The translations under genes and the position numbers were made by a program. A DNA stretch of 64,000 bases from Muscardinus avellanarius (taxonomy: Eukaryota > Chordata > Mammalia > Rodentia > Gliridae), in assembly GCA_963383645.1 (NCBI GenBank), contig OY726573.1, positions 17,200,158 through 17,264,157 on the forward strand. The letters are read 5' to 3'. Shown in pieces: positions 4,906 through 31,698 of the stretch (position 1 is the first letter of the stretch; every line of letters starts with the position of its first letter). The notes below the pieces were generated by a model that had not been told where the DNA came from, made no database searches, and saw only the letters and a program-made list of their open reading frames with translations.

Positions 4906-5408
4906 AAAAACTAAATTGAACGCACTTCATTTTTCACTTTCACTAGAAACCTGAACGTAGCCACTTTTTCCTGAGGGAGTGCTGGGGTTGGACGATTGCA
5001 TCCAGGGAACCAATCCCACCTCCTTCAGCTAATACCCATGCCTAGGGAAGAGGCTGTGGAAAGAATGGATCCTGTTAATGGACACAGAGTCGCAGCCTTT
5101 CCTTGGGCTGCTCAAACACCAGTGGTCAGGAGAGCAGATTGTCCTGTCTTGCTCCTCTTACAAATTCTTGTTGCCCCCAGGAGGCCACGGCTCCCGGCCC
5201 TCTCTGCTTCTCCTGCCTCCCCATGCTGGTGTCTCAACCCTGAGCCTCCCCGACCTTCACCATCCACGCTGCACCCCCCCCCCTTTGCCATTCACACATC
5301 TTCAGATCTCTCCATCCTCAAGCACATCCTCCCTGATCTCTCACGTCTTGCTGCATCTGCCCCCTCTGCTCTACTGAACGTCTTCTGTATTGACTCAAAA
5401 TGTCTCCA
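4906..5408. other. No feature recognised
   Basis: Pyrimidine-rich stretch, including a run of C at about 5273-5284. It contains open frames of 99-142 codons that are proline/serine-rich by composition. I see no evidence of a gene. Confidence 0.3.
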
Positions 5409-20394: not shown

Positions 20395-23049
20395 TTTTAA
20401 AATTTTTTTATTGGTACATTATATTCATGCATGATATTGGGGTAAAAAACTTGTGTGTACATACAAGTACACATCACCCATTTAGCCCCTACCCAATTCC
20501 CACCCCATCCCCTCCCCATCCCTCCTTCCCTTGCTTGGCTTAGTGGTTGGCTTCGATATGTGTAAGTACATTGTGTGTTTTAGAGAATTTCCTTCTTCCC
20601 CCTCCCATCCCCTCATTTAGGTTGTCTTGTTTGCTCCTCTATAGGATTTCCTTTTTCATCTAGAGTTCCTCCTATGACCCATTACTCCTTAGCTTTCACA
20701 TATTAGGGACAGCATCTGATTTCTTATTTTTTATGACTGACTAATCTCACTTAGCATAATGTCCTCCAGTTCCATCCATTTCCCTGAAAATGACGTAATT
20801 GAGTTTTTTTAATGGCTGAGTAAAATTCCATTGTGTACATATCCCACAGTTTTGTAATCCATTCATCTGTTGATGGACATCTTGGCTGGTTCCATAGTTT
20901 GGCTATGGTGAATTGGGCAGCTATGAACATAGATACACATGCATTAGTTTGGTAGTTTGGTTTCCTATCTTTTGGGTAGATATCCAGAAGTGATATTGCT
21001 GGATCAAATGGTAGATTTGTTCCCATTCTTCTGAGGATTCTCCATACTGTTTTCCAAAGTGGTTGCACTAATTTGCAATCCCACCAACAATGTTTTAGAG
21101 TTCCTACTTCTCCACATCCTCTCCAGCATCTGTTGTTATTTGTGTTTTGAATGATTGCCATTCTAGTTGGAGTTATGTGAAATCTCAGGGTAGTTTTGAT
21201 TTGCATCTCTCTGATTGCCAGTGACGTTGAGCATTTTTTCATGCATTTATTGGCCATTTGAATTTCTTCTTTCGTGAAATGTCTGTTTAGTTCACTTGCC
21301 CGTTTTTTGATTAGATGATTTGTTTTCTTAGTGTTGAGTTTCTTGAGTTCTCTGTATATTCTAGATATTAGTCCTCTATCAGAGGTGTAGGTGGCAAAAA
21401 TCTTCTCCCATTCTGTTGGCTCTCGATTGAGGTTCTTGACAGTTTCCTTTGCTGAACAGAAGCTCTTCAGTTTCATGCAATCCCATGTATTGATCTGCCT
21501 TTTAATTTGTTGTGCCTTTGGGGTCTTGTGGAGAAAGTGTTTATCTGTGCCTATGTGTTGCAGTGTTGGACCTATGCCCTCTTCAAGAAGCTTAAAGGTC
21601 TCTGGTTTGATTCCCAAGTTTTTGATCCAGGATGAGAAAGTGGGATTAATTTCCAATTATCTGCATATGGTTAACCAGTTTTGCCAACACCATTTGTTGA
21701 AGAGGCTATCTTTTTTCCAGTGTATGTTTTTGGCCCCTTTGTCAAAAATCAATTGGCTGAAAGTGTGTGGACTTGTTTTTGGGTCTTCTATTCTGCTCCA
21801 TTGGTCTATGTATCTGTTTTTGTGCCAGTACCATGCTGTTTTTATTACAATGGCTTTGTAATATAGTTTAAAGTCAAGTATTGTGATTTTTCCTGCATGT
21901 TTTTTTGTTGCTGAGAACTGCTTTGGCTATTCTGGGCTTTTTGTTATTCCAAATAAATTTAAGGACTGATTTTTCTATATCTGTGAGGAATGATCTTGGT
22001 AGTTTAATGGGCATTGTGTTAAATCTGTAGATCACTTTTGGAAGGATGACCATTTTAATGATATTTATTCTGCCAATCCATGAACATGTAAGATCTTTTC
22101 ATCTTCTAAGATCTTCTTCGATTTGTTTTTTGAATGATTTATAAATTTCTTTGTAGAGATCTTTTACCTCCTTGGTTAAGTTTATTCCTAAGTATTTTAT
22201 TTTTTTGTGGGAGATCCTGAGCAGAAATGTTTTCTGAATTACATTTTCAGTGGATTTATGGTTGGTGTACAGGAAAGCTTCTGATTTTTTAAGACTGGTT
22301 TTGTATCCAGACACTTTGCTGAATTTGTTAATCAGTTCTATAAGCCTTTTGGTTGAGTTTGTTGGGTTTTCTAAATATAGTATCATGTCATCTACAAATG
22401 GTAAAAGTTTGAGTTCTTCTTTTCCTATTTGTACTCCTCTGATTTCCTTTTATTGCCTTGTTGCTCTGAAAAGAGTCTCTAGTACTATATTGAAGAGAAG
22501 TGGTAACAGTGGACATCCTTGTCTTGTTCCTGTTTTTAGGGGGAATTCTTGAAGTTTTTCCCCATTTAATATGATGTTGGCGGTGGGCTTATTATAGATT
22601 GCCTTTATGATGTTGAGATATGTTCCTTCTATTCCAATTCTCTGCGGTGCTTTTTATCATAAATGGATGTTGGATTTGATCAAATGCTTTTTCAGCATCT
22701 ACTGAAATGATCATGTGATTTTTGTCTTTGATTCTGTTTATATGGTGAATTACATAGATTGATTTTCATATGTTGAGCCAGGCTTGCATCCCTGGGATGA
22801 ACCCTACCTGGTCATGATGTATGATTTTCTTGATGTGGTTTTGAATGCGTGTTGCTAGTATTTTGTTTAATAGTTTTGCATCCAGGTTCATCAGAGTTAT
22901 AGGCCTGTGGTTTTCCTTCCTTGAACTGTCTTTATTTGGTTTGGGTATTAGTGTGATGTTGGCTTCATAGAATGTATTTGGGAGAGTCCCACTTTTTTCT
23001 ATTTCATGAAATAGTTTGAGGAGTATTGGGATTAGCTCTTCTATATAGG

Positions 23050-23250
23050 TTTTTTTTTTTTTTTGGGTGGTACTGGGGTTCCTGGAAGCCCTTCTACTTC
23101 TGGGCTACACTCCCAGACCTATTTTTACATTTTTATTTGGAAACAGGGTCTCCTAAGCCAGCGCGCGCGGCTGGCTTCGAACCTGCGCGATCCTCCTGTC
23201 TCAGCCTCCCAAGCGCGGGGATTACAAGCGTGCGCCACCACGCCCGGCAG
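23050..23250 (-). mobile_element. Young-type B1-ID SINE in LINE-1 ORF2
   Basis: Complete antisense SINE of the compact subfamily, with a T-run at the tail. It is flanked by TTCTATATAGG at 23039-23049 and 23251-23261, a clean target-site duplication inside the LINE-1. Confidence 0.95.
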
Positions 23251-24192
23251 TTCTATATAGGTTTGATAGAATTCACTTGGGAAACCAACTGGTCCTGGGC
23301 TTTTCTTTGATGGTAAGCTCTTTATTGCTATTTCAATCTCTTTGATTGTTATTGGTTGGTTTAAGCATTCTATATATTCTTGACTCAGTTTAGGAAGGTT
23401 GTATTCATCTAGGAAGTTGTCAATTTCCTTCAGATTTTCCATTTTGTTGGAGTATAGTTTTTCAAAGTAGTTTCTGATAATCCTCTGGATTTTAACGCTG
23501 TCAGTAGTAATGTCTCCTTTTTCATCTCTTATCCTCATAATTTGGGTTGACTCTCTTTTTTTTTAGTTAGGTTGGCTAGTGGTTTATCTATCTTGTTACT
23601 TTTTCAAGAAACCAGGTTTTGGTTTTGTTGATTTTCCGTATTGTTTTATTCTCTATTTCATTAATTTCTGCTCTAATTTTAATAATTTCCTGTCTTCTAC
23701 TGGCTTTGGGGTTCAATTGTTCCTGCTTTTCAAGGGCTTTGAGGTGTGTTGTTAGGTTATTTATTTGAAGATGTTCTGTTTTTCTTATGTGAGCACTCAG
23801 TGCTATAAATTTTCCTCTTAATACTGCCTTCAGAGTGTCTCAGAGGTTTTGATATGTTGTATCTTTATTTTCATTTATTTTAAGAAATTTCTTGATTTCA
23901 CCTCTTAAATCTTCTATGACCCATTCTTCATTCAGAAAAGTGGTGTTCAGTCTCCACATGTTTATGTTGTTTCTCTGGGTCTTCTTATAGTTGATTTCTA
24001 GTTTCATTCCATTATGGTCTGAAATGACACAGGGAAGTATGTAACATTTTTTTAATTTGGTAGTGCTTATTTTGTGTCGCAGGATGTGATCTATTTTGGA
24101 GAAGGTTTCGTGAGCAGCTGAGAAAAGTGTAAACTCTGCTGTAGTTGGGTGAAATATTCTATATGTGTCCAACAGTTCCATTTGATTAATGG

Positions 24193-24852
24193 TGATGGAG
24201 AACATGGACCAAACCTGAGGAACGAAAGGTTCCGAAAGAGTTAAGGCAGTTTGACGAAAGGCCAAGCATTCCACGACTCTGGGTGACTCCTGGTCTTTCC
24301 AGAATTTCATGCCCCCGGACCACTGGTGAGAGCCGGAACTGGCTGCAATCATGCCCTTAATAATCTTTCACCAGGCCTCTTTGTTTCTTCTTGGGGTTTT
24401 TGTGTGTATGTGTGGTACTGGGGTTCCTGGAAACCCTTCTACCTCCAGGCTACACTCCCAGACCTATTTTCATACTTTTTACATTTGGAAACAGGGTCTC
24501 TTAAGCCAGCACGGCTGGCTTCGAACCTGCACGATCTTCCTGTCTCCACCTCCCAAGCGCAGGGATTACAAGTATGCACCACCACGCCCGGCTGTTTCTT
24601 CTTGTTTTTTTTTTCCCTCGATGATTGTGCTCTGCAAGCATATGACGTATGTCCTATATCAATCATTCTGTATTGTGTTTAAAATTGTACTTTGATGTTT
24701 TTCTTTCTTTTTGAAGTTATGGTTTTGGTGTAGCTGAAAAAAGGTAGAAAAACTTAGTCCTAGTGAATAAAGTTGTCAGTTGTCCAAGAGACAATTGTCT
24801 GTGCCTTCATTTTAGGTCTCTCCCTCCCAAGTCCCAGAGAGGAATCTCCACA
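24193..24852 (+). mobile_element. Solo LTR inserted in LINE-1 ORF2
   Basis: Starts TGATGGAGA, ends TCTCCACA (near-inverted termini) and is flanked by AATGG at 24188-24192 and 24853-24857. The 5-bp duplication suggests an ERVL/MaLR-type integrase or a relative. A polyadenylation signal sits in 'gtgaataaagttgtc' near 24765. It contains a later SINE at 24392-24592. LINE-1 ORF2 homology resumes directly on each side. Confidence 0.85.
24392..24592 (-). mobile_element. Young-type B1-ID SINE inside the solo LTR
   Basis: Antisense compact-subfamily SINE flanked by GTTTCTTCTTG on both sides (about 24381-24391 and 24593-24603). It is the third layer of nesting: SINE in LTR in LINE-1. Confidence 0.92.
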
Positions 24853-25785
24853 AATGGTGTCTTTAGATCTGAGGCATCTTTACTGACCTTTTGTCTGGAA
24901 GATTGGTCTAGTGTTGTGAGAGGAGTGTTGAAGTCTCCCAGTATTATTGTATTGGGATTTATGTGTGACTTCATGTCACAAAGAGTTTGATTTATGAAAG
25001 TAGCTGCACCTATGTTCGTGGCATATATGTTGATTATTATTTCCTCTTGCTGGATTATTCCTTTTACCAGTAAAATATGACCTTCTTTGTCTTTTCTAAT
25101 AAGTTTGAGTTTGATGTCTAACTTGTCTAATATCATAGTTGCTACTCCTGCTTGCCTTTGAGTTCTGTTAGCATGGATTACCTTTCTCTAGCCCTTTACC
25201 TTGAGTTTGTTCCTATCTTTACTTGTAAGATGTGTTTCTTTTAAGCAGCAGATGGATGGATTCTGGTTTTTAATCCATTTTGCCACTTTATGTCTTTTTA
25301 ATGGGGAGTTGAGGCCATTTACATTCAGTGTGATTATTGAGAGATAATTTTTAATTCCTAACATGTTAAGATTTTATTTCTGTTTGAGATACTGTTTATT
25401 CTTCTTTGCTTAGTGCCTGCTGAATGGAAAATCTTGTTTCTTTGTTTCTGGCGTGTATTACCTATTTCTTCTTTGCAGTTAATCTCCTTGAGTATTTTCT
25501 CTAGCGCTGGTTTTGAAGACATAAATTCCTTCTGTTTCTGTTTGTCATGGAAGCTTCGTATTTCCCCATCTAATTTGATAGATAGTTTTGCTGTGTAGAA
25601 AATTTTTGGCTGGAAGTACTTTTCTTTCAGAGTTTGGAATATGTTACTCCAGGCCCTTCTGGCTCTCATGACTTGGTTTGGGAAGTCTGGAGTGATTCTA
25701 ATTGGTTTGCCTCTGACTGTCACTTGGCCCTTTTGTTTTTCTTGCCTTTAAGATTCTCTCCTTGGTTTTTACATTGGTCATTTTG

Positions 25786-26155
25786 TTTTGTTTTGTGTTT
25801 TATTTATTTTTATTGGTGCATTGTAATCATACATTACATTGAAATATAAGACTTGAGAAGATATACAAGCACACATCATCCAATTAGCCCTCATCCAGTC
25901 CCCATCCCATTCCCTCCCCCTCCCTCGATCCCATGCTTCTTTGGTGATTAACTTTGATACATATGTTTATGTACCTCCTGCTTTTTAAAGAGGCTCCATC
26001 CTCCCCTATTCCATACCCTCTGATTGGTCACCTTAATTGATTCACTATAGGGCCCTTTCTATAGCTTGACCACTTCCTGTTGCCCCTTTCCTACTAGTTA
26101 TTGATGATTAGGGGAAGCATCTGGTTTTAATTTTCTGCGATATTACTCTGTGCAT
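25786..26155 (-). mobile_element. LINE-1 3'UTR-derived module and A-rich tail
   Basis: Collinear similarity to the host LINE-1 3'UTR at 20395-20730: 'ttattggtgcattgtaatca' versus 'ttattggtacattatattca', then 'acacatcatccaattagccc' versus 'acacatcacccatttagccc', C-rich blocks, and 'ggaagcatctggttttaatt' versus 'gacagcatctgatttcttat'. It is diverged enough to come from another LINE-1 subfamily. I infer it supplies the 3' end recognised by LINE-1 machinery. Confidence 0.85.
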
Positions 26156-26159
26156 GCCA

Positions 26160-27900
26160 CATTGCAAATACCGATCCCAATCTTGACGGCCCCAGTTGTG
26201 GCCTGGCTACCCACTGGACTGATCAGACCTCGCTGGCTCAAGCAGCAGCCTTGCCTCATGGGAGGCCCCGGTTCTGGCCTCGCTGGCCCCGACACTGGCC
26301 TAACCCCTTAGCTAGCTCCCATCCTGGCCTCAGAGGCCCCAGCACTGGCCTTGCCTCACGGCAGGCTCCGATGTTAGCCTATGGCCCCGGCATCGGCCTA
26401 ACCCTTCGGCAAGCTCCAATCCAGGACTCAGAGGCCTCAGTAGCGGCCTTGCCTCACAGAAGGCTCCGATGCCGGACAGTGGCCCCGGTACCGGCCTAAC
26501 CCCTCAGCTGGCTCCGATCCCGGCCTCGAGGCCCCAGCACCGGCCTTGCCTCACGGCAGGCTCCGATGTTAGCCGATGGCCCCGGCATCGGCCTAACCCC
26601 TCGGCAGGCTCTGATCCAGGCCTCAGAGGCCCCAGCATCGGCCTTCCTCATGGCAGGCTCTGATCCTGGCCTCGCTGGCCCCAGCACCAGCCTAACCCCT
26701 CGGCAGTCTCCGATCCTGGCCTTGGAGGCCTCAATAACAGCCTTGCCTCAGGGAAGGCTCCGATGCCGGCCGTTGGCCCCAGCACTGGCCTAACCCCTCG
26801 GCAGGCTCCGATCCTGGCCTCAGAGGCCCCAGCACCAGCCTTGCCTCACGGCAGGCTCCAATCCGGGCCACGCTGGCCCTGGCACCGGCCTGACCCCTCG
26901 GCAGGCTCCGATTCCGGCCTCAGAGGCCCCAGCACCGGCCTTGCCTCACAGCAGGCTCCAATCCCGGCCTCGTTGGCCCCGGCACCGGCCTGACCACTCG
27001 GCAGGCTCCGATTCCGGCCTCAGAGGCCCCAGCACCGGCCTTGCCTCACAGCAGGCTCCAATCCTGGCCTCGTTGGCCCCGGCACGGGCCTAACCCCTCG
27101 GCAGGCTCCGATCCCGGCCTCGGAGGCCTCAATAATGGCCTTGCCTCACGGAAGGCTCTGATGCTGGCCGTTGGCCCCAGCACCAGCCTAACCCCTCGGC
27201 AGGCTCCAATCCCGGCCTTGGAGGCCCCAGCACCGGCCTTGCCTCATAGCAGGCTCCGATCCTGGCCTCAGAGGCCTCAATAGCAGCTTTGCCTCACGGA
27301 AGGCTCCGATGCCGGCCAGTGGCCCCGGCACCGGCCTAACCCCTCAGCAGGCTCTGATCCCAGCCTCGGAGGCCCCAGCATCGGCCTTGCCTCGCAGCAG
27401 GCTCCGATCCCAGCCTTGCTGGCCCCAGCACCGGCCTAACCCCTCTGCAGGCTCCGATCCCGGCCGCGGAGGCCCCAGCACCGGCTTTGCCTAACGACAG
27501 GCTCCGATCCCGGCCTCGCTGGCCCCGGCACCTGCCTGACCCCTCGGCAGGCTCTGATGCCGGCCAGTGGCCCCGGCACCGGCCTAACCCCTTGGCAGGC
27601 TCTGATCCCGGCCTTGGAGGCCCCAGCATTGGCCTTGCCTCGCAGCAGGCTCCAATCCCAGCCTCGCTGGCCCCGGCACCAGCCTAACCCCTCGGCAGGC
27701 TCCGATCCCGGCCTCAGAGGCCTCAATAATGGCCTTGCCTCACGGAAGGCTCCGATGCTGGCCATTGGCTCCAGCACCGGCCTAACCCCTAGGCAGGCAC
27801 TGATCCCGGCCTCGGAGGCCCCAGCACTGGCCTTGCCTCACGGCAGGCTCCGATCCCAGCTTTGCTATGTCCGTCGCCGGCCTCACCTCTCGGCAGGCTC
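26160..27900. repeat. 50-bp GC-rich tandem array (~35 copies)
   Basis: Unit of exactly 50 bp in most copies, built on 'ggccccggcaccggcctaac' + 'ccctcggcaggctccgatcc' + 'cggcctcaga'. Three unit types interleave: one with 'cctaacccctcggc', one with 'ccttgcctcacggc', and a 48-bp type with 'ggcctcaataatggcc' and 'cacggaaggc'. Because 50 is not a multiple of 3, the open frames here change phase every unit and are not genes. Confidence 0.93.
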
Positions 27901-27904
27901 TAAT

Positions 27905-28480
27905 CCAAGCACCCTCTTCGCCCAACTATTTGTCCCCCATTCTCGAGGGTGCATGGTGGTGGTAGCATTCTGCCTCTGGGGTCATTACTTCAAAAGGTCC
28001 AGGTGTAATATATCAGATCTCTGCCTCCCCTGAGTACTGGCCACTGCCATTGCCACTGCCTCCACCATTACCAGTCTTTCCCAAGCTCTCTTTTCACTCT
28101 GAATGTTGTCCAATCTTCCTAAGCATGTGTGACGGTAGCATTCAACCTTTGGTGTAATTTCTCCAAAAAATAAATAAATAAATAAGGTTGGTAGGCTCCG
28201 ATTTCTGCTTCTCCTGAATACAAGTCTCCACCGCCAACACAGATACCGCTTTCAGCACTGCCTTTCTCCTTGGTCTCCGTTAAAGTCTCTCTCTTTACAG
28301 GTGATGTCCAAGATTCTTAACAATGTAGAGAAGAAGCAGTCCTCCTTAGTGGGGAATTTTTCCAATAATTCCAGTTCATTTGGATAAGTTTTGTCTGCAT
28401 CTCCAGTATCCTGGCATCTGCCACCTCCTTGACCCCTCTCCGATATTTTCCTTTTTTCTTTTTCTTTTAATTTTTTACAG
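27905..28480. repeat. Diverged 190-200-bp repeats, about three copies
   Basis: Less GC-rich middle part of the composite element. Matching landmarks recur near 27913, 28101 and 28301 (for example 'gttgtccaatcttcctaagc' / 'gatgtccaagattcttaaca'; 'ggtagcattc' blocks; 'ctgcttctcctgaatac' / 'ctgcctcccctgagtac'). An (AAAT)n run lies at about 28167-28182. Confidence 0.6.
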
Positions 28481-28875
28481 GGTCCTTCCGGGTGGAGAGG
28501 GGGGTCACCTAGGGGTGCCCCGCCAGCGCCTACCCACCCGCCCAGGGTCAGGGGCCCAGGGTCCTTCCGGGTGGAGAGGGGGGTCGCTTAGGGGCGCCCC
28601 ACCGGCACCTGCCCATCCGCCCAGGGTCGGGGGCCCGGGGTCCTTCCGGGTGGAGAGGGGGGTCACCTAGGGGCGCCCCGCCGGCGCCTGCCCACCCGCC
28701 CAGGGTCAGGGGCCCGGGGTCCTTCCAGGTGGAGAGGGGGGCCGCCTAGGGGCATCCCGCTGACGCCTGTCCACCCGCCCAGGGTCGGGGTCCCGGGGTC
28801 CTTCCGGGTGGAGAGGGGGGTCGCCTAGGGGCGCCCCACCGGCGCCTGCCCACCCGCCCAGGGTCGGGGGCCCAG
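28481..28875. repeat. 79-bp GC-rich tandem array, 5 copies
   Basis: 'ggtccttcc' recurs at 28481, 28560, 28639, 28718 and 28797, exactly 79 bp apart each time. Units contain 'gggtggagaggggggtc' and 'cccacccgcccagggtc', are CpG-rich and differ at only a few positions. Being at the element's 5' end, it is a candidate promoter array. Confidence 0.93.
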
Positions 28876-29453
28876 GAGCCCCGGACCACGGGGTCTGCAT
28901 TGGTCATTTTGACAATTATGTGGCATAGGGAACCTCTTCTCTGATCCTGTCTAAAGGGAGTTCTATAAGTTTCCTGGATCTGTGTATCGACCTCTTGCTC
29001 TATGTCTGGAAAATTTTCTACTAGTATTTCCTTGAAGAGATTATTGATCCCTTTGGTTTCACCTTCTTTTCCCTCCTCTATTCCAATTATTCCTAGGTTA
29101 GTTCTCTTAAGATGGGCCCATATTTCTTCAATGTCAGATTCCTGCTGTCGGATTTTTTTCTGTAAATTATAAACTATACGTTCATTTTTGGAGCGATCAT
29201 CTTCTAGGAGCTAGATTCTATTCTCCATGTGTTCTAATCGATTGTTTATACTTTGAATTGAGGCCTTTACTTCAATTTTTGCATCCGTTATTTATTTTAG
29301 ACTCTCTCTGAATTCTTTTCAAAGTTCCTGTATTATTTCTACAGTTATTTTCCTAATTTGATCTTCTAGAGATCTCTGAATTTCTGTGTTATCTGGTTCT
29401 GATGTTGTGGGGTTGTGGGCATTCATTGCTCCATTGTTGTTCCTCTTTCCCAT

Positions 29454-30477
29454 GATTTCAGAAGTTTGTGCCTTCTCTGGGTTCTTCCCTGGGTCACTAC
29501 GACTTCACTTAGAGTGCTCTGGATCTGGAGTCTGTGGTAATCTCATTCACCACTACTCCTTTACTGGGTTGTATCGCAAAGTCTCAGACCCAGGGAGTTA
29601 ATCGAGGCTGCATGAAACCATGGGGTGCCAGGCTAGGTGTTTTCCCACAGGGAGCTGTGACTAGGATGTGGTATCTCTGCCACCGCTACTCCTTCACTGG
29701 GTTAGACTGAAAAATCTCAGACCCAGGGAGATTATCAAAGCTGCACAAGTCCCTGGGGTGCAGTACTGGGATTTCTCCTTTAGGGGCCGCAATTTCACTC
29801 ACGGTTGTTGAGTGCGTTGATCTGTAGCTGTCTCGGACTCTGTGAACTCTCCGCCGCTGCTGGCAATATGGCGCCGTTGCCATGCCCTCGCTGTCAGGCT
29901 GGTGTATTTCTTTTCTGGTTTTGAGCTCCATTCTGAGTCCCTGAAGGGTGTGCTGAGCTTGGCCACTGGGAGTTTTAGACGTTCTTTGCGCTTAAAAAGC
30001 TGCTGAATTACACCTGGATGTTCCGCAGCTGCTCACTTCAGCTCTTTGTTTATCTTTCCTCTCTGGAGCCTGGTGGGTTGTTGAGTGCACTGATCTGGAG
30101 CCGTCGTGGACGCAGTGAACTCGCTGCCACTGCTGGCAATATGGCGTTGCTGCCGCACCCTCAGCTGTGAAGCTGGCATATTTCTTTTCTGGTTTTGAGC
30201 TCCGTTCTGAGTCCCTTTCTTCTCTGTAGCCTGGTGCTGCGAGGAAAGATGGTGCTGGCGCAGCTGGGCCGCCAGAATGTGGGCTGGTTTCTTTTCTGGT
30301 GTCTGGTTGTTCTTCTAGCCTTTTTTTTCTCTATCCCTTGTATTTACAGTTCTTATTTCTCTGCTGATGTTGTTTTCTGGCTATGAAAAGCACTGATTTT
30401 GTGGCAATAGAGATCGATTGTTAGTGGGACTCATAAACACCGCTTTTTTCGGTCACCATCTTCCTGGAAGTCTAACA
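29454..30477 (-). promoter_or_regulatory. LINE-1 5'UTR with duplicated monomer
   Basis: The 5' end carries 'aggaagatggtgaccg', a YY1-like AAGATGG near the start as in other mammalian LINE-1s. A block with 'gccatattgccagcag', '...gatcagtgcactcaacaacc' and 'ggagctcaaaaccagaaaag' occurs twice, about 273 bp apart (around 29800-29940 and 30075-30215), which suggests tandem promoter monomers. Confidence 0.7.
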
Positions 30478-31214: not shown

Positions 31215-31698
31215 GGACACCCAAAGCCCCGCTGGAGTGGACATTAGCCATGAACAACTGACACCTGCTGGAGTGGACATTAGCCATGGACAACTGACAC
31301 CTGCTGGAGTGGACATTAGCCATGGGCACCTGTAGCCCACTGGAGTGGACATTAGTCATGGATACCTGATGCCTGCTAGAGTGGACATTAGCCGTGGACG
31401 CCCAGAGCCCTGCTGGAGTGGACAATAGCAGTGAAAACCCAGAGCCTGCTGGAGTGGACGTTAGCCATGGACACCTGACACCTGCTAGAGTGGACATTAG
31501 CCCAAAGCCTGCTGGAGTGGACATTAGCCGTGGACACCTGACACCTGCTGGAGTGGACATTATCCATGGACACCTGATGCCTGCTGGAGTGGACATTATC
31601 CATGGACACCTGATGCCTGCTGGAGTGGACATTAGCTGTGGACACCCAGAGCCCTGTGGAGTGGACATTAGTCATGGATACCCAGAGCCCTGCTAGTC
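31215..31698. repeat. 36-bp minisatellite (~13 copies)
   Basis: Units built on 'gctggagtggacattagcc' + 'atggacacctgacacct'; most are 36 bp, with shortened ones near 31490 and 31640. Because 36 is a multiple of 3, open frames run through the array on both strands (for example repeated 'AGVDISHGHLTP'). I see no start context, splice sites or homology that would make this a gene. Confidence 0.9.

Follow-up and report, generated by a model that had tools for sequence, protein, structure and literature searches.

The 64,000-nucleotide stretch of chromosome 16 of the hazel dormouse (Muscardinus avellanarius) analysed here (the window) carries an insertion at positions 25786-28897, which is best understood as a member of a non-autonomous, composite non-LTR retrotransposon family of this species, most probably copied in trans by the dormouse LINE-1 (probability about 0.88, judged from sequence comparisons). 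The sense strand of the element is the minus strand, on which an array of 79-bp monomers is followed by a middle module of ~577 bp, a GC-rich VNTR of 50-bp units, a LINE-1 3'UTR and an A-rich tail. An earlier note on this DNA had guessed at a rodent host, which was correct. The features of the locus are given below in the direction of the element, followed by the LINE-1 in which it resides.

28898-28911, no strand: target-site duplication on the 5' side of the element (exact 14-bp repeat)
28478-28897, minus strand: 5' array of ~79-bp GC-rich monomers, proposed promoter (TRF, comparison of 108 monomers, clustering of 5' ends)
27901-28477, minus strand: middle module of ~577 bp with weak self-similarity at ~195 bp (self-alignment)
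26191-27900, minus strand: GC-rich VNTR of 50-bp units with a 100/198-bp higher order (TRF, span 26241-27900)
26135-26190, minus strand: joint of ~55 bp between VNTR and LINE-1 3'UTR (outside the nhmmer LINE-1 match)
25815-26140, minus strand: LINE-1-derived 3'UTR with a G-rich tract (nhmmer match to the 3'UTR of the host LINE-1; G4-type motif in all 21 copies)
25786-25814, minus strand: AATAAA polyadenylation signal and A-rich tail (AATAAA in 21 of 21 copies)
25772-25785, no strand: target-site duplication on the 3' side of the element (exact 14-bp repeat)
20413-30431 (ends approximate), minus strand: older broken LINE-1 hosting the insertion in its ORF1, also interrupted by SINEs (ORFs, Pfam, empty-site alignment, match to the 5' region of young LINE-1s, 3'UTR)

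The insertion and its host LINE-1

The element is bounded by an exact direct repeat, CATTGGTCATTTTG, at 25772-25785 and 28898-28911, in agreement with the 14-bp duplication of the earlier note; when 3,000 pairs of stretches were drawn at random from the window, the longest abutting match was 8 bp. The duplication may be 13 bp long, because one base next to the A-rich tail is ambiguous. The host LINE-1 lies on the same strand as the element and shows a Transposase_22 domain on one flank (28914-29210, Pfam E 7.7e-10) and a Tnp_22_dsRBD domain on the other (25361-25747, Pfam E 1.3e-19). The claim of an ORF1 on both sides therefore holds for the two domains and for the DNA, which is continuous across the insertion, but not for the reading frame, which stops and a change of frame had disrupted beforehand. 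If the flanks are joined as an empty site, the resulting sequence aligns to a young LINE-1 locus (L073) over 889 bp, at 91.7% and with a single gap opening; the alignment spans the junction at base 603, thus restoring LINE-1 sequence. A 36-bp minisatellite is located at window positions 31231-31682, just upstream of the apparent 5' end of the host LINE-1 (~30431).

Modules of the element

Of the three tandem arrays originally described, two are recovered by TRF, namely the 50-bp array with 33.6 copies (26241-27900, with additional periods of 100 and 198 bp) and the 79-bp array with 5.1 copies (28478-28876), while the third, given as about three copies of 195 bp, is weak and amounts to a self-match of ~62% at offsets of ~199 and ~374 nt within the middle module. 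The VNTR has a GC content of 66-70% and varies between 926 and 2,561 bp in length among nine copies with a middle module, including the one in the window. The joint of ~55 bp at its 3' edge (26135-26190) resembles neither of the adjoining modules well.

Several origins of the middle module were considered and rejected. No Rfam match to the element was obtained at E values up to 1, 7SL/SRP RNA included, which speaks against descent from an RNA family. A protein origin was rejected because no Pfam match above the cut-off was found in the overlapping ORFs tested; the scan covered three minus-strand ORFs overlapping the module and one plus-strand ORF, with weak matches at E 0.24 and 0.1, and LINE-1 domains were absent from all four. 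The longest stop-to-stop stretch within the element comprises 197 aa. A derivation from LINE-1 or from the rest of the window was rejected as well, the nhmmer matches to the module consensus being weak (best E 0.0054).

As recognised in the earlier note, the 3' domain corresponds to LINE-1: by nhmmer, the stretch 63-376 of the module consensus aligns with the host LINE-1 3'UTR (E 7.6e-32), the match running from immediately behind the ORF2 stop as far as the end of the 3'UTR, while young LINE-1s with frames of 1,257 aa score lower against the 3' module (E 5.5e-20 and weaker). BLAST identities to 12 LINE-1 loci are 66-78% over the main stretches, those to the 3' ends of young LINE-1s 66-80%, and none of the 12 loci, the host LINE-1 among them, showed a closely matching 3'UTR that would mark it as the donor. 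AATAAA and a G4-type tract lie near the 3' end in all 21 copies compared. As judged from these alignments, the 3' end of the element is a derived LINE-1 3'UTR, so that its description as LINE-1-like stands, but not that as a mimic. The 3'UTRs of young dormouse LINE-1s are themselves of two kinds, a short one of ~330 nt (L064, L067, L070) versus a long one of ~1 kb with an AT-rich insert (L065, L068, L071).

Copy number, module order and age of the family

The searches covered a hazel dormouse assembly of 2,497,143,478 bases in 104 contigs; the genome publication (PMC11190645) lists 212 scaffolds with a total of 2,497.5 Mb, some small scaffolds seemingly missing here. With three mismatches allowed, a 36-mer from the 3' end occurs 5,857 times (2,932 + 2,925) and one from the middle module 2,448 times (1,230 + 1,218), whereas reversed control 36-mers do not occur at all. 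The copies are spread over many chromosomes. Among the best 40 of 8,402 first-look candidates for an 815-bp 3' query, 39 copies outside the window match at 92-94%, and the main matches to a 1,018-bp 5' query all include the VNTR edge (40/40, best 40 of 4,783 candidates). In the 20 best outside matches to the 3' part of the window, each taken with ~6.5 kb upstream, all modules are present in the same order in eight copies (one of which, L011, retains 146 bp of the middle module), and 12 start within the VNTR (one of these, L022, begins at an assembly gap). Truncation at the 5' end is thus common among the copies. The share of copies with 5' modules agrees between this sample and the ratio of the two 36-mers (2,448/5,857). 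The recurrence of the module order, together with flanking repeats that differ between copies, establishes the family that the earlier note had envisaged. Directly upstream of one copy (L013, near sense position 5328 of the locus), a VNTR in opposite orientation was seen by eye, as a 5' inversion (twin priming) gives.

Measured as non-CpG distance, the copies deviate from their consensus by 1.56% on average in the 3'UTR (21 copies) and by 1.8% in the middle module (eight copies). A further sample, consisting of the first 20 exact 3'-end matches on chromosome 1 in list order and thus leaning young, differs from the consensus by 2.6% on average, two outliers of 9.8% and 5.7% included. At a substitution rate of 2-3e-9 changes per site per year, such distances would correspond to a family age of roughly 5-13 million years, and the dormouse composite is therefore best read as a young family.

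Probable mobilisation by LINE-1

Exact flanking repeats of at least 11 bp are present in 16 of 21 copies, window included, and of at least 12 bp in 15; when flanks from different copies were paired as a control, 8 of 420 pairings reached 11 bp and none reached 12. The repeat of one copy (L016) is probably a SINE match, being located far downstream within a SINE, and in another (L017) some non-A-rich sequence precedes the repeat. No convincing duplication was found in the remaining five copies (L012, L013, L015, L020 and L022). The junction consensus, TT/AAAA, resembles a LINE-1 endonuclease site. Of 16 junctions, 13 have T at -1 and 14 have A at +1, in a set which includes L016 and seven junctions trimmed by hand to begin at the A run; in the nine untrimmed ones, T precedes seven, and seven begin with AAAA, AAAT or AGAA. 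Five of the 131 LINE-1 ORF2 matches listed lie in open frames of 1,256-1,257 aa, which indicates that LINE-1 machinery existed recently. Two of three regions upstream of LINE-1s with an open ORF2 of 1,257 aa contain an incomplete LINE-1, made up of the 5'UTR and a portion of ORF1, in head-to-tail arrangement; these loci on chromosomes 3 (L072) and 2 (L073) carry the extra partial LINE-1 ~2.2 kb before their own 5'UTR/ORF1, with differing breakpoints.

A plausible life cycle would start with RNA polymerase II initiating within the 79-bp monomers, where one site would be favoured, and transcribing through the middle module and the VNTR into the LINE-1 3'UTR, where polyadenylation would occur at AATAAA. 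The transcript would then be taken by LINE-1 ORF2p and inserted by target-primed reverse transcription. Since the proposed promoter lies in an array within the element, long new copies would bring their own promoter along. The VNTR might serve RNA stability, chromatin or access to the LINE-1 proteins, which is a guess.

The 79-bp array as putative promoter

The 79-bp monomer contains GGGCGGG at phase 13 and CCGGAAGG inside the zone in which the 5' ends of the copies cluster, which we take to be a GC box and an ETS-like motif, respectively; a YY1 or TATA core was not found in the unit. The CCGGAAGG site is well conserved across 108 monomers and directly followed by an insertion hot-spot. Some ~21 bases at the 5' edge of the element (28877-28897) are part of a longer monomer variant of ~92-95 bp, which shows a palindromic-looking insertion where the 5' ends cluster (in the window at 28877-28897, and in L034, L035 and L052).

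The distribution of 5' starts was analysed in 46 copies beginning in the array, the one in the window included, which represent a biased sample as they are mostly best matches to the long 5' query. The starts are non-uniform on the plain unit (Rayleigh R 0.436, p 1.6e-4) as well as with variant units allowed (R 0.485, p 2e-5). The 13 phases 66-78 hold 27 of the 46 starts vs 7.6 expected, the latter value being somewhat low because this zone was picked after inspection of the data and variant insertions were collapsed into phase 74. We infer from this pattern that the array may act as a promoter, with a preferred RNA polymerase II start inside the monomers.

Alternative explanations

The same clustering could be produced if reverse transcriptase paused at a stable RNA stem, with the promoter located elsewhere. 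This is a live rival, because a fold predicted for three monomers is paired up to phase 67 and then mostly unpaired over phases 68-74, and the clustered ends lie at 67-77; we nevertheless consider it rather unlikely, since the 5' ends of mouse LINE-1 monomers likewise cluster at a promoter-factor site with mapped starts (PMC10620060). Still less probable appears the idea that all copies are processed retrocopies of one non-coding RNA gene of the host, a master locus, and transmit no promoter of their own. A single master would predict the nearly star-like 3'UTR tree with short internal branches that is observed for 21 copies (mean pairwise difference 4.0%), but the middle module is kept in 2,448 copies and several monomers in many of the 46 copies placed in the array, and it follows that copies retain the putative promoter.

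The earlier note had itself named a LINE-1 subfamily with an expanded satellite in its 3'UTR as an alternative. On this reading, the copies would be truncated LINE-1s. That the 3' end is a LINE-1 3'UTR, and that young dormouse LINE-1s show two kinds of it, would fit; in the chromosome 1 sample, however, the VNTR lies upstream of 18 of 20 exact 3' ends and a LINE-1 ORF2 tail upstream of none (the other two being a weak 34-bp VNTR match, L097, and a copy truncated within the 3'UTR, L089), the 79-bp array, and not ORF2, forms the end of eight of the 20 longer copies, and apart from short stretches of low complexity, nothing in the 12 LINE-1 loci matched the 79-bp array, the middle module or the VNTR. 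We have rejected this reading as highly improbable. Even less credence is given to spread by segmental duplication or satellite dispersal, which the abundance of tandem repeats in the element might suggest, but which is at odds with copies on many chromosomes that have different flanks, individual duplications and A-rich tails. Retrotransposition in trans by LINE-1 remains the preferred explanation, against which speak the five copies with no convincing duplication and the failure to find a closely similar LINE-1 3'UTR in the 12 loci.

Implications

The chances appear about even that the SVA design, with a promoter of tandem repeats, an adaptor without coding function, a GC-rich VNTR core and a 3' end taken from elsewhere, arose twice, the second time in a rodent and out of unrelated components, in a family young enough to be possibly still moving. 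If so, a long GC-rich tandem core would be no primate accident, but a functional solution found repeatedly by long non-coding RNAs for exploiting LINE-1. Comparing SVA with another family that is built of unrelated parts and has thousands of young copies would help to address the role of the VNTR, the question of whether LINE-1 and its parasites generally rely on tandem 5' arrays as promoters, and a possible parallel evolution of host repressors against the dormouse family; dormouse genetics would gain a set of insertion markers. No title reporting such a rodent family was among the matches listed from the open-licence PMC literature, which is weak evidence of novelty.

Comparison with known elements

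Human SVA elements number ~2,700-3,000 copies, and measured against this figure the dormouse family looks larger. In one study, VNTR composites are described as specific to hominoid primates and as unique among known non-LTR retrotransposons in having complex internal tandem repeats, SVA being moved in trans by LINE-1 (PMC4432496). Like SVA as depicted there, the dormouse element is a non-autonomous composite that combines a 5' repeat/adaptor, a GC-rich VNTR core whose length varies, a 3' domain of borrowed origin and a poly-A tail (PMC4432496). It differs in its 5' array of 79-bp units instead of CT hexamers, in the lack of any Alu/7SL-like match to Rfam, in VNTR units of 50 bp vs about 40 bp (compared by length alone), in a 3' domain from a LINE-1 3'UTR instead of SINE-R, and in its occurrence in a rodent instead of hominoid primates. 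Its rodent host, and the failure to find a CT-hexamer/Alu-like 5' end, keep it from being classed as SVA. The LAVA, PVA and FVA elements of gibbons are likewise VNTR composites with exchanged 3' ends, and the 3' part of LAVA includes a LINE-1 fragment (L1ME) (PMC4432496). These elements share the hexamer/Alu-like 5' end and the VNTR with SVA, whereas no such 5' end was found in the dormouse element and its VNTR differs in unit length.

With respect to its 5' end, the element resembles the TF LINE-1s of mouse, which possess tandem promoter monomers in variable number and whose 5' truncations cluster at one monomer site, the YY1 site near mapped start sites (PMC10620060). The mouse unit has 212 bp and contains YY1, while the dormouse unit has 79 bp and contains an ETS-like and a GC-box motif; moreover, the dormouse array drives no ORFs, and its start sites are predicted, whereas those of mouse are mapped. 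With the dormouse LINE-1, the element has the homologous 3'UTR from the ORF2 stop to the end in common, but it is a composite without LINE-1 ORFs, and three upstream regions of young LINE-1s contained no match to the 5' modules beyond stretches of 21-27 bp. The rodent analogue of SVA and LAVA proposed in the earlier note is thus supported, and the best reading is that the dormouse family apparently represents an independently assembled SVA-like retrotransposon, its separate origin being suggested by the different parts and the different host.
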